DNA from: Acidobacteriaceae bacterium
GTDB taxonomy: Bacteria > Acidobacteriota > Terriglobia > Terriglobales > Acidobacteriaceae
Assembly: GCA_021323655.1 (NCBI GenBank)
Contig: JAJPKO010000057.1
Span: forward strand, 1 to 64,000
DNA: 64,000 nucleotides
Reading direction: 5' to 3'
Shown piece after piece: positions 16,236 to 20,650 of the stretch. The notes below the pieces were generated by a model that had not been told where the DNA came from, did not search any database, and saw nothing but the letters and a program-made list of their open reading frames with translations. Position numbers and translations under genes: made by a program. Position 1 is the stretch's first letter. The number at the start of each line of letters is the position of its first letter.

Positions 16236-16277
16236 GTTTCAAATTGGGACTTCCCATATCGCGTTCCAATTTGGAAC
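16236..16277 (+). promoter_or_regulatory. pair of palindromic sites upstream of the sigma-54 regulator
   Basis: GTTCCAA-T-TTGGAAC (16263-16277) is a perfect 15-base palindrome. GTTTCAA-A-TTGGGAC (16236-16250) is a weaker copy of the same pattern. Their centres are 27 bases apart. They sit about 180-205 bases upstream of the expected start from the -24/-12-like site, the usual place for enhancer sites of a sigma-54 activator. They may be autoregulatory sites for the downstream NtrC-type protein. Confidence 0.5.
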
Positions 16278-16421: not shown

Positions 16422-16438
16422 TGGCCATCCGCATGCAA
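16422..16438 (+). promoter_or_regulatory. possible sigma-54 (-24/-12) promoter
   Basis: TGGCCATCCGCATGCAA keeps the invariant GG (16423-16424) and GC (16435-16436) with exactly 10 bases between them, plus TGGC and TGCA flanks. It lies 127 bases before the enhancer-binding protein start. The middle of the site departs from consensus (TGGCACG), so confidence is modest. Confidence 0.4.
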
Positions 16439-16564: not shown

Positions 16565-17998
16565 ATGCTAACCACAACTCCCTTTTTGAATATGACTGAA
16601 GAAAGCCGGATACGGGCGAGTGTTCTGATTGTGGATGAAGATGGCGCGGTGCGATACGCCTGCAACGAAATCGCGTCTTCCAAAGGGTACAACGTATATA
16701 GCGCGGAGAATATATCCGCGGCCCTTTCCCTGTTGAGAGGAAATGGTGTTGATATCGTTTTGCTCGACCTGAAGGGGCCGCAAAGTCTTCACCTGGAGCT
16801 CCTGGAACAGATCAAGGCACTGCATCCGGAAACCGCGGTCATTGTGATGACTGCTTATGCAACCATTGCCTCAGCAGTAGAAGCCATGCGCGTGGGTGCG
16901 GCAGACTATTTGACCAAGCCTTTCACGGTGGATGAGCTGACAACGGTCCTTGACCGTGCGGCAGAGCGGCGCGCGCTGGATGTAGCAAGCCGTCGGCTGC
17001 GGGAAAAGCTGCGGACGGAGCAAGGACTGAGCAACATCATCGGGCGCAGCGCCGAGATGGACAGGATTTACCGCATTCTGTCGAAGGTGGCGCTTACCTC
17101 GCACCCTGTACTGATTCTTGGAGAAAGTGGTACCGGAAAAGAGTTGATAGCACGGGCCATACACAGTCATGGTCCCAATGCTGGAAAACCCTTCGTTCCT
17201 GTGGATTGCAGCTCGATCGTGCCTACGCTGATCGAAAGCGAGCTGTTCGGCCACGTAAAAGGAGCATTTACCGGGGCGAACCGCTCCAAAGATGGCCTGC
17301 TGGTTTCCGCCGAAGGCGGGACCGTTTTCCTGGATGAGATTGGAGAGATGCCGCTGGATCTCCAGTCCAAATTGCTTCGCGCCCTTCAGGAGAAAGAGGT
17401 TCGTCCAGTGGGAGCAACGAATCGCGTGCCGATCAACGTGCGTATTCTTGCTGCTACCAATCGCAATTTGACCGAGATGGTGGAGCAAGGGCGCTTCCGC
17501 AAAGACTTATATTACCGGCTCAATGTGGTGAATCTCCGTCTGCCCGCCCTGCGGCAAAGGCGGGAAGATGTGCCGCTGCTGATCGCCCATTTCCTGGAGC
17601 GCAAGAACCGCGAATACGGGAAGAACTTCCGGATGAGCGATGAGATGCTGCGCGTCCTGATGGAATATGACTGGCCAGGAAATGTGCGCGAGTTGGAGCA
17701 CCTGATTGACCGCGCGTGCGCCTACTGCTCGGGCAATGTTTTGCAGCTCGGGGATGCGCCAACTTCAGTGGTGGAGTATTACTCGAATACGCGTCGGCGG
17801 ACTTTCTCGCCTGAGGCAAAGACTGATACTTCCCTGATTGCTCCATCCATCACTTCGCTGGTGGAACTCGAAAAGCAGGCCATACAGAAGGCGTTGGACA
17901 CCCTTCAGGGAGACAAGCTGGCTGCTGCAAAGCTGCTGGGAATCGGTAAAACGACCCTGTATCGCAAGATCAAGGAATACGGTCTGAATCAAGCATGA
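16565..17998 (+). CDS. sigma-54-dependent response regulator (NtrC family)
   Basis: About 477 residues. Receiver domain 18-130: acid pair D24/D26, phospho-acceptor D68 (VLLDLKGP), conserved Lys in LTKPF. The AAA+ domain (about 155-390) has Walker A GESGTGKE, the sigma-54 contact loop KGAFTGA and Walker B VFLDEIGEMP. A Fis-type helix-turn-helix closes the protein (KLAAAKLLGIGKTTLYRKIKE). All parts needed for sigma-54 activation are present. I prefer ATG 16565 over an upstream ATG that adds an unrelated basic leader. No histidine kinase lies nearby; the next gene is a receiver-like protein. Confidence 0.93.
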   Translation: MLTTTPFLNMTEESRIRASVLIVDEDGAVRYACNEIASSKGYNVYSAENISAALSLLRGNGVDIVLLDLKGPQSLHLELLEQIKALHPETAVIVMTAYATIASAVEAMRVGAADYLTKPFTVDELTTVLDRAAERRALDVASRRLREKLRTEQGLSNIIGRSAEMDRIYRILSKVALTSHPVLILGESGTGKELIARAIHSHGPNAGKPFVPVDCSSIVPTLIESELFGHVKGAFTGANRSKDGLLVSAEGGTVFLDEIGEMPLDLQSKLLRALQEKEVRPVGATNRVPINVRILAATNRNLTEMVEQGRFRKDLYYRLNVVNLRLPALRQRREDVPLLIAHFLERKNREYGKNFRMSDEMLRVLMEYDWPGNVRELEHLIDRACAYCSGNVLQLGDAPTSVVEYYSNTRRRTFSPEAKTDTSLIAPSITSLVELEKQAIQKALDTLQGDKLAAAKLLGIGKTTLYRKIKEYGLNQA

Positions 17999-18049
17999 AC
18001 GGCTGGTAAGCAGCATTCACAATTCTGAACCAATTTGAGGAGCCAGAGT

Positions 18050-18574
18050 ATGCGAACGATGTTGATGATTACCCCAATTTTAGGAGCGGAGAACTGCGCG
18101 TCCATGCTGACGAAACAACTTGCAATGGAGGTGGAAATTGCCACGAACCGCAGGGACGGACTGGCGAAGTTGCGGCGTAAAGAATACTCCATTGTTGTTA
18201 TAGACGGTGCGATTGTGGACGCCGACCCGGAAGCAGCCGAAGCGCTCTGGAAATACGCAGGGTTTGCTGTTCCGATGCAGTTCAACTTCGCCATTTCCGG
18301 AACGGCGCGATTGGTACGTGAAGTCCGCGCTGTTCTTGACCGCCGCGAACAGGAGAAGACGGTGGCCATGCGCGCGGCAACCATGGCAGTAGAAAATGAG
18401 TTGCGCGATGTGGTTACCGGTCTGGTGCTGCATTCCCAACTTGCGCTTACCGAACCTGAGATCCCTGCAGCACTTTCCGCGCGCCTCAAAACTGTTGCAG
18501 CGCTGGCTGGCGCGCTACGCGAAAAGCTGGGAAGTGAAGCACCGAACGCGGCTAATGCATCAGGTGCTCGTTAA
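18050..18574 (+). CDS. pseudo-receiver plus DHp-like protein
   Basis: 174 residues. Residues 1-105 look like a CheY-type receiver: the strand ending in D (YSIVVIDGAIVDAD) is kept, but the acid pair after strand 1 is replaced by MITPI, so phosphorylation is doubtful. Residues about 110-165 form two helices like a kinase dimerisation domain (ENELRDVVTGLVLHSQLAL, then a second helix with ARLKTVAALAGALREKL), but the catalytic His is not at the usual place and no ATPase domain follows. ATG 18050 has GAGGAG seven bases upstream. It lies 51 bases after the sigma-54 regulator and is probably its partner or modulator. Confidence 0.6.
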   Translation: MRTMLMITPILGAENCASMLTKQLAMEVEIATNRRDGLAKLRRKEYSIVVIDGAIVDADPEAAEALWKYAGFAVPMQFNFAISGTARLVREVRAVLDRREQEKTVAMRAATMAVENELRDVVTGLVLHSQLALTEPEIPAALSARLKTVAALAGALREKLGSEAPNAANASGAR

Positions 18575-18793: not shown

Positions 18794-20650
18794 TTAGTGG
18801 ACGGGGAGCATGACCATTTGACCGGCGGGTTGAGTGTGTCCGAGGCGGACTATGTAGGGCGTAATCAGCACGATCAGCTTTGTGGTGCTGACCTGCGTGT
18901 CTTTGTTGGTGGTGGACTGGAGGAAGCCTGGCAGCTCGCTGAGTCCGGGAATTCCGCTGATGGCGGCGCTTTGCTGTTTGGTGATATTGCTGACTACGAG
19001 CGCGCTTTCGCCCCGTGCCAGCGTGATATTGCCTGTGTACTGCCGGTTACTGAGGACCGGGTTGCCGTCGAGGGTCTGTCCTGTGAGAGACACGATTTTT
19101 AGGTCGAGCTTGAGCGAAACATCGTGGTCCTGCTGGATGCGTGGAGTGGCGGTGAGTGTCAGTCCCAGGTCCTGATATTGCACCTGCGGAATGGTTGTGC
19201 TCAGGCTGCTTTGCAGCGACGCTGCGCTGATGCCAAGGTTCTGGAGATAGCTGGAAAGGCCAGCCTGCGAGATTCCAGGAATATTGAGAGAGCTTCCCGC
19301 CAGGTTTGAGTAGGTCGAGGTGACGATGGGGTATCGAGTGCCGCTGCGGAAGGTGGCTTGGTCCTGGTCCTGGACGCGGAGCTGGACGTTGTCTATTGCG
19401 CGGGTGTCAGACGAGTTGAGGCTGAGATTGAGTGTGGCGCTTTGGTTAAGCGTGAGGCCGCTCTCGGTGATTCCGCCGCCGAAGAGGGCAAAGGGCTGGT
19501 TGAAGACGGTGCCGGAGACGACGCCTGACGCTATCAAAATGGCCACGATTGCGAGATTGTCGCCGGCATTGGCGAGGCCCGAGGAAATGATTTGCTGCAC
19601 GGCGCTCTGGTTGTTCTGAATGATCTGATTGACTTCAGAGGGGACGTTGAAGACTGTTGTCTGCTGGGGCAACTGCGCACCGAGATTCACGAGGCGCGAT
19701 TGGTCTATTTCATAGAGGCGAAGATTCAGAAGGACCTGGCCGCGTCCGGCGAGTAATTCTGCTAGCGTATGGTTCAGCGCCTCAACGCGTTCTTTTGGAC
19801 CACGCACGGTGAGGGTGTGCTGGTCCTGCTGAATGGTCGCCTGCTGAATTTCAAAGACCTGGCGCACGGCATTGCCGAGACCGGTGGCCTCATCTGGCGT
19901 CAGACCGGGAAGATAGATCGTTTCCATGACCTGACGCTCAAATTTTGCACGATTGTCTTTTGTGTCGGCGGCAACGAGCACGCGTTTTTCATCGAGCGGG
20001 ACAAAAAATGTTCCGGTGGCGAGCTTGAGCATTTGCGCGGCCTGGGCGAAGTCCACATTGTCTACATCGAAGCGGACGAGCTGGCTGGGGACAGATGAGT
20101 CGAGAGTCGGAACGATGCCATAGGCACTGAGCACCTGGCGCAGGACATCGGTCCCTGCGCTGCGCAGATGAAAGCTCATTTTTCCATTAGAGGGAGAAAG
20201 GTTGACGGGAGGAGAGGATGTTTCTACCGCGGGGGCGAGCAAGGCATCGTGTGGCTCATAGTCGCGCGCGAGCTCATCGAGATGCTGGGCCACGATAGGA
20301 TTTTGCGGGTCGAGGGTATAAGCCTCGGCCAGATCTGCGCGTGCAGCGGCATTATTTCCGAGCAAACGCGATTTGCTGGCATCCTGCACAAGCTTAGTAA
20401 GCAGGTGCTCTCTGGCAATGGTGAGAGAGGTGGCGTAATCGCGATTTTGCGGGGCGAGCTGGAAGGCACGCTGAAAGTCTTTGACTGCGGTGCGGAGGTC
20501 GTCTTTCTCGAGGGCCTTTGCCCCTTCAAGAAAGGCTTTTGTTGCTCCAGAAGGGTCGGGCTTGACGGTCGGTGTTTGACCATAACTGCAGAGGCCGGTC
20601 AGCAACAGCGCGATCAAAACTGCCCCATGACTGGAACGGCGGAGCATCAT
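18794..20650 (-). CDS. secretin (GspD/PilQ superfamily) with N-terminal TPR region
   Basis: 618 residues: signal peptide 1-24, a TPR-like region (about 35-130, FLEGAKALEKDDLRTAVKDF), a secretin/TonB short N-terminal type domain (about 165-235, LRQVLSAYGIVPTLDSS), a KH-like N domain (about 240-305) and the C-terminal secretin barrel with its conserved ending (ISGIPGLSELPGF, then TKLIVLITPYIV). Secretins form outer-membrane gates for type II/III secretion, type IV pili or phage. No other secretion genes lie nearby. Its start overlaps the stop of the HAD gene (ATGA), so the two are co-translated. Confidence 0.88.
   Translation of the reverse strand: MMLRRSSHGAVLIALLLTGLCSYGQTPTVKPDPSGATKAFLEGAKALEKDDLRTAVKDFQRAFQLAPQNRDYATSLTIAREHLLTKLVQDASKSRLLGNNAAARADLAEAYTLDPQNPIVAQHLDELARDYEPHDALLAPAVETSSPPVNLSPSNGKMSFHLRSAGTDVLRQVLSAYGIVPTLDSSVPSQLVRFDVDNVDFAQAAQMLKLATGTFFVPLDEKRVLVAADTKDNRAKFERQVMETIYLPGLTPDEATGLGNAVRQVFEIQQATIQQDQHTLTVRGPKERVEALNHTLAELLAGRGQVLLNLRLYEIDQSRLVNLGAQLPQQTTVFNVPSEVNQIIQNNQSAVQQIISSGLANAGDNLAIVAILIASGVVSGTVFNQPFALFGGGITESGLTLNQSATLNLSLNSSDTRAIDNVQLRVQDQDQATFRSGTRYPIVTSTYSNLAGSSLNIPGISQAGLSSYLQNLGISAASLQSSLSTTIPQVQYQDLGLTLTATPRIQQDHDVSLKLDLKIVSLTGQTLDGNPVLSNRQYTGNITLARGESALVVSNITKQQSAAISGIPGLSELPGFLQSTTNKDTQVSTTKLIVLITPYIVRLGHTQPAGQMVMLPVH

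Follow-up and report, generated by a model that had tools for sequence, protein, structure and literature searches.

The window analysed here, a stretch of 64,000 nucleotides, carries on its forward strand a short gene immediately behind one for an NtrC-type sigma-54 activator. Its product of 174 amino acids is referred to below as RLP (receiver-like/DHp-like protein). The features on which the analysis rests are the following.

16264..16276, + strand: TTCCAATTTGGAA, a palindrome and candidate upstream activator site; this 13-mer recurs before the L085 operon
16422..16437, + strand: TGGCCATCCGCATGCA, candidate -24/-12 element for sigma-54 ahead of the activator gene; weak, a consensus match only
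16565..17998, + strand: NtrC-type sigma-54 activator, with receiver, sigma-54 AAA+ domain and Fis HTH; receiver residues DED, D, T and K intact
18037..18042, + strand: Shine-Dalgarno-like GAGGAG before the RLP gene, from the sequence
18050..18574, + strand: RLP, 174 aa, an open ORF with an ATG start and a predicted model
18050..18301, + strand: predicted pseudo-receiver half, residues 1-84 (AF2), with four strands, lacking the acidic pair and one beta-alpha unit
18203..18205, + strand: codon of D52, which closes strand 3; of 110 relatives, 103 have D here and 7 have E
18302..18535, + strand: predicted DHp-like hairpin, helices 85-133 and 140-162 (AF2), with helix 1 continuous with the last receiver helix
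18395..18397, + strand: codon of N116, at the position of the H-box histidine; His in 0 of 110 relatives

The two genes are co-directional, and a recount of the bases between the activator stop codon (17998) and the RLP gene gave 51, as in the original prediction. The latter also saw no histidine kinase here, and a profile made from the kinases of relatives indeed found none at E<=1e-10 on C16, the contig that holds the window. The genome itself has an rpoN-type gene and 12 strong matches to the activator domain. On the minus strand (18794-20650) the activator-RLP pair is adjoined by a gene for a protein with a C-terminal secretin domain; this gene was not found in the other 29 short loci, each of which reaches only about 1.5 kb past RLP. 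From Pfam nothing credible was obtained for RLP, the only match being RecX_HTH1 at E 0.15, which was disregarded. A chance ORF or artefact is ruled out by the conservation of RLP and its dN/dS, given below.

The structure of RLP was modelled with AF2 from 51 aligned sequences, taken from the window and named relatives, with a mean pLDDT of 91.4 and a pTM of 0.70. The predicted elements are E3-7, H13-24, E27-31, H34-43, E48-52, H53-58, H60-70, E74-78, H85-133 and H140-162. Compared with receivers by VIA, residues 1-100 gave a best Z of 13.8 (rmsd 1.9 over 97 aligned residues) to the PmrA receiver 9of7_B; since they pair with receiver residues 1-120, about 20 residues are missing. From the order of the elements we read the gap as alpha4-beta5, between strand 4 and the last helix: instead of the five beta-alpha units of a receiver (PF00072) the model has four strands, and its last helix begins six residues past strand 4. 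Strand 1 passes straight into T8-P9, so that there is no acidic pair; position 8 is T or S in 103 of 110 relatives, and neither D nor E is among the commonest letters listed for positions 8-10. In contrast, the position of the phospho-acceptor Asp at the end of strand 3 is still occupied by an acid, D52. The N-terminal half thus qualifies, on its predicted model, as a pseudo-receiver, i.e., receiver-like and without the residues needed for phosphotransfer, and it is detected via structure rather than via the Pfam receiver model, which did not list RLP even at E<=10. All this bears out the original description of a receiver-like protein that has lost its acid pair and kept the Asp of strand 3. 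An unrelated fold, neither receiver nor DHp, would have told against that description; the AF2 model and the VIA receiver matches give none.

The C-terminal helix pair had been described as DHp-like without a usable His, and this also holds: a hairpin is predicted, the five His-bearing homologues scanned are of HisKA type, and all 110 relatives of the family lack the His. At position 116 they have S (40), N (20), T (17), A (14), G (11) or others (8), never H; the adjacent position 117 has E (90), Q (10), D (8), G (1) or K (1). In HisKA domains at large, loss of the His amounts to 0.9% in the part of the review that gives the figure (PMC12632262). The structural matches of the isolated hairpin include HK853, ERS1 and GacS/RetS chains among the best, at scores that are weak for a DHp assignment, as unrelated helical chains reach similar values (best Z 8.6, against 8.4 for the unrelated 2pms_C). 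Foldseek returned no match to the hairpin with E below 0.001, and the RetS/GacS chains that head its list have E 0.4. The stronger evidence is a profile-profile match to His-bearing proteins (E 5.4e-12 over 157 columns) that sets their His over N116. An impression by eye that this half had been copied from the operon's own kinase was rejected, as operon kinases match at E 0.0017 only. The profile search against receiver and HisKA families proposed in the original prediction succeeded in part: the Pfam models failed for RLP itself, which is below the HisKA cut-off (PF00512) and unlisted in the scan, but all five His-bearing relatives scanned passed that cut-off (33.5-39.1 bits against 26.9).

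RLP is a protein of the window's GTDB family. Among 61 related genomes it was found in 32 of the 37 of that family, with weak matches in four of another. When 399 genomes of the class were scanned, 69 of them yielded 70 matches below 1e-30; all are within the family, and 39 of the matched loci were added to those already in the set. Relatives occur in Acidipila, Paracidobacterium, Terracidiphilus, Edaphobacter and Granulicella; two culturable strains, Acidipila rosea DSM 103428 and Terracidiphilus gabretensis S55, carry the gene, and the 123 RLP sequences reduce to 110 distinct ones. Some rows were left out: L059, whose C-terminus is odd, from alignment A2; L079 from A5 alone; L070, L071, L082 and L083, which are other proteins, from one 20-locus set; L188, an ordinary kinase, from the paralogue set; and L094, with another start type, from the promoter set. 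In close pairs the dN/dS of RLP is 0.035-0.28, by our own counting method and with dS near saturation in many pairs.

Orthologues away from the activator would have weakened the original reading, but the ntrC gene is directly upstream of RLP in 99 of 101 loci with room to see it; among the first 30 loci the activator was found in 29, the thirtieth ending with its contig. The two exceptions are L043, with the activator about 0.8 kb upstream, and L087 (genome G293), where an intact RLP follows an activator cut to its last ~53 residues and a kinase reduced to a stump of 187 aa, by either a deletion or an assembly fault. Further upstream, in the 96 loci where at least 2.6 kb is available, a kinase with a catalytic domain is present in 63, of which 12 are hybrid kinases; the other 33, the window included, have no adjacent intact kinase. 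On this gene order the ancestral system comprised a kinase and NtrC, with RLP as its third gene. The operon kinase of a relative, used as a query, recovered its full gene in its own genome (G404) at E 1.1e-211 and no orthologue in G000 and G001, two genomes of the window's genus, where the best match (E 2.6e-12) consisted of kinase-domain pieces 31-34% identical. Relocation of the kinase within the window's genome was rejected on the same values. That the ancestral operon has a kinase, not found in the two searched genomes of the window's genus, was not foreseen in the original prediction, nor were the missing beta-alpha unit of the receiver fold and the His-bearing homologues of the DHp half. 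Short ORFs upstream of ntrC in L038 (103 aa) and L062 (256 aa) match the operon kinase in a DHp piece only, and are apparently kinases in decay. Within about 10 kb downstream of RLP, a glycosyltransferase-like gene was seen in eight loci (L036, L038, L039, L042, L043, L045, L046 and L047), six of them with further glycan-type genes, named by eye; this gene is a possible target of the activator.

The ancestry of RLP is indicated by weak class-wide matches outside the family. These include proteins of about 180-270 aa that join a pseudo-receiver to an intact H-box, RHExNNPLTGILGNAELL. In the outer families f7, f15 and f12 the His is present in all 26 RLPs fetched; a kinase is directly before RLP in 25 of them (the twenty-sixth meets a contig end), each of the 25 has a receiver by BLAST, and an ntrC gene lies within the fetched stretch in 19 of the 26. 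A hybrid kinase with a receiver before a His-bearing RLP is the partner set that a phosphorelay needs, and since these homologues with an intact H-box stand behind hybrid kinases, the RLP of the window is the derived form. It looks like the phospho-dead descendant of a DHp-type histidine phosphotransferase, or phosphate carrier, as judged from these sequences. In the sister family f2 the gene follows ntrC with no kinase between in 4 of 4 cases, and keeps its His in one. Two changes of the His label suffice on the tree, in which a long branch leads to the window's family; in the simplest history, a relay protein would have lost its His twice, once in the window's family and once within f2. A second paralogue, about 230 aa long and with the His, occurs at L185, L186, L187, L189 and L190, with an ntrC gene in four of the five stretches. 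Its relatives match in 21 genomes of the family and in G055 (the His was read in five only), with none in G000 or G001.

The activator has changed as well. Its phospho-Asp position, readable in 97 loci, is D in 65, N in 28, E in 2, G in 1 and H in 1, and the 32 without Asp all have RLP; examples with N are L033, L086, L088, L091, L053 and L095. RLP is under purifying selection both where NtrC keeps its Asp and where it has lost it, which fits binding rather than phosphotransfer, though dN/dS tends to be higher with N (0.05-0.28) than in most D pairs (0.05-0.22). Of the 28 loci with N, 24 have an upstream kinase, and 19 of these kinases show the His-box pattern with its His, one of the other five being cut by the contig end. 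Distance-matrix covariation of RLP with the NtrC receiver gave no specific signal, as the AAA+ domain tracked at least as well.

In a sister clade, recognised by RLP starts MIL, MVL or MNL, the RLP gene has a promoter of its own. A sigma-54 element precedes the ATG in 24 of 37 loci, under a rule requiring GG and GC at sigma-54 spacing, at least 7 of 12 consensus letters and the GC 12-14 bases before the ATG; the same rule is passed by 187 of 13,450 control ATGs (1.4%) and 146 of 22,000 shuffles (0.7%). With this placement and the usual start, the MIL-type RLP mRNA is predicted to have a leader of 1-3 bases, i.e., to be near leaderless. Positions -44 to -41 are conserved, as are -89 to -79, which are part of a TTCC-N5-GGGA-like palindrome (10 of 25 loci pass the palindrome rule, compared with 10.6% of shuffles). 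The loci with an RLP promoter, in the 0-110 bases before the ATG, include L039-L043, L045, L047, L049, L050, L055-L058, L060, L061, L084 and others; a TTTC block and a palindrome upstream often accompany the promoter. The RLP gene of the window lacks this promoter, and has a weak sigma-54-like match, CGGCTGGTAAGCAGCA, at 18000. The candidate sites before ntrC may make the window's operon autoregulated; TTCCAATTTGGAA is weak alone, the window having four such palindromes against 0.97 expected. No regulon is claimed from a search of eight genomes for the palindrome with a sigma-54 element, which gave, as matches/control, 2/4 in G000, 1/1 in G001, 8/0 in G005, 3/0 in G012, 2/2 in G027, 5/2 in G007, 0/1 in G376 and 1/2 in G404.

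The best idea for what RLP does remains, in our analysis, the original one of a non-phosphorylated modulator of the activator. Given as a mechanism, it starts from the predicted fold, the residue losses, the conservation, the gene order, the homology to His-bearing proteins and the promoter anatomy of the sister clade. The ancestral relay would have run from the His of a hybrid kinase to the kinase's own receiver Asp, on to the DHp His of RLP, and from there to the receiver Asp of NtrC. In the window's family RLP would have lost its His and one pseudo-receiver unit, and kept the fold, the beta3 acid and the place beside NtrC. It would form a DHp-like dimer, and this dimer would dock on the NtrC receiver and hold the activator back, both docking and sign being modelled on PhyT-PhyR. 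That RLP docks on NtrC and restrains it is a tentative proposal, which we put at somewhat below an even chance. With its gene closely behind ntrC, or under its own sigma-54 promoter in the sister clade, RLP would then act as feedback. Several findings count against this explanation: the covariation without a signal for the NtrC receiver; the tendency of RLP to a higher dN/dS in the N group; the 12 operons of the family that keep a hybrid kinase although their RLP has no His; the long branch between the window's family and the His-bearing group; and the weakness of the sigma-54-like match before the RLP gene of the window. In addition, phylogeny confounds both the loss of the His and the scarcity of hybrid kinases, as the tree needs only two changes. 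L087, where RLP has outlived its activator, speaks against a function via NtrC alone. In the available part of the PhyT study, an Asp mutation in its regulator weakened binding (PMC5898713), which fits poorly with NtrCs that have no Asp.

Other readings share part of this evidence. HisKA-type phosphatases have N or T in their motif, at what is RLP position 120. An RLP serving as a dedicated phosphatase of NtrC-P, with E117 helping to place a water, would agree with the E, Q or D at position 117 in 108 of 110 relatives and with the intact Asp of the window's NtrC, and HisKA domains do not need the His to act as phosphatases (PMC12632262). We nevertheless consider it improbable: the window has D at position 120, just 24 of 110 relatives have N or T there, and RLP is kept in the 32 of 97 readable loci where NtrC has no Asp. 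Those same loci (N 28, E 2, G 1, H 1), and the lack of an operon kinase in two genomes of the window's genus, suit instead a positive partner, whose binding would turn NtrC on in place of Asp phosphorylation. As 65 of 97 NtrCs retain the Asp, and the sequence does not reveal whether the effect is positive or negative, we give this a similarly small chance. Alternatively, RLP may heterodimerise with the DHp of a histidine kinase and block its autophosphorylation, in the manner of RetS and GacS, for which there is precedent in the part of that work at hand (PMC12148439). A kinase is upstream in 63 of 96 loci with room, and RetS/GacS chains came first for the hairpin in Foldseek, albeit at E 0.4; however, an intact adjacent kinase is missing from 33 of the 96 loci, including the window, the operon kinase was not found in G000 or G001, and RLP is nearer to His-bearing RLPs (E 5.4e-12) than to operon kinases (E 0.0017), making this marginally the least probable of the three. 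A functionless, decaying kinase remnant, as the missing His, acid pair and receiver unit could suggest, is hardly tenable given 110 distinct relatives with D or E at position 52 throughout, a dN/dS of 0.035-0.28 and a conserved promoter of its own in the sister clade.

The preferred reading, RLP as a restraint docked on NtrC, has partial parallels. ChpT and Spo0B are dimeric histidine phosphotransferases whose DHp-like dimer moves phosphate between receivers; this would fit the His-bearing RLPs of the outer families, whereas the RLP of the window has no His, no ATPase-like domain, and an N-terminal pseudo-receiver. LvrB, a hybrid response regulator of Leptospira found among the structural matches of the hairpin (8vc9, Z 8.3), likewise has a receiver and then a DHp; unlike RLP, its receiver is phosphorylatable, and it has a catalytic domain. 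CmrT has a DNA-binding output, being a response regulator, unlike RLP, in which the C-terminal half is DHp-like. Both are third-gene pseudo-receiver proteins: in the review, as far as available, CmrT belongs to the CmrRST operon, beside a kinase and a regulator, and its mechanism is open (PMC12632262). RetS of Pseudomonas, in the portion of the work at hand, also has a DHp that serves protein-protein control (PMC12148439), although it is itself a hybrid kinase with a kinase partner. PhyT (formerly PhyP), of the general stress response of Sphingomonas melonis, is a DHp protein whose ATPase domain does not work; its gene lies at the locus of its regulator, and its negative arm is attributed to a complex with PhyR in the accessible part of that paper (PMC5898713). 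It differs from RLP in being membrane-anchored, of HWE type and still in possession of its His and a degenerate ATPase domain, and no pseudo-receiver is named in that part. In the open-access literature no paper was found on sigma-54/NtrC two-component control in Acidobacteria or Terriglobus; print may hold some.

Taken further, the comparison might describe a stepwise shift from a four-step phosphorelay to control by binding only, in which the carrier His was lost first, then about one third of the activator Asps, and the kinase in the window's genus, with RLP staying as the master switch and one clade placing it on a leaderless sigma-54 mRNA; as a whole this history is unlikely. A whole bacterial family of soil acidobacteria carries, beside a sigma-54 activator, a protein in which both signalling modules are disabled, and the way in which bacterial pseudo-receivers are themselves regulated is called a mystery in a 2025 review (PMC12632262). 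Separately, the predicted near-zero leader behind the sigma-54 promoter of the sister clade is another oddity open to test. The family offers a natural series with the His kept or lost, the kinase kept or lost and the activator Asp kept or lost, so that the question of what remains when phosphotransfer is removed can be tested by swapping natural proteins.
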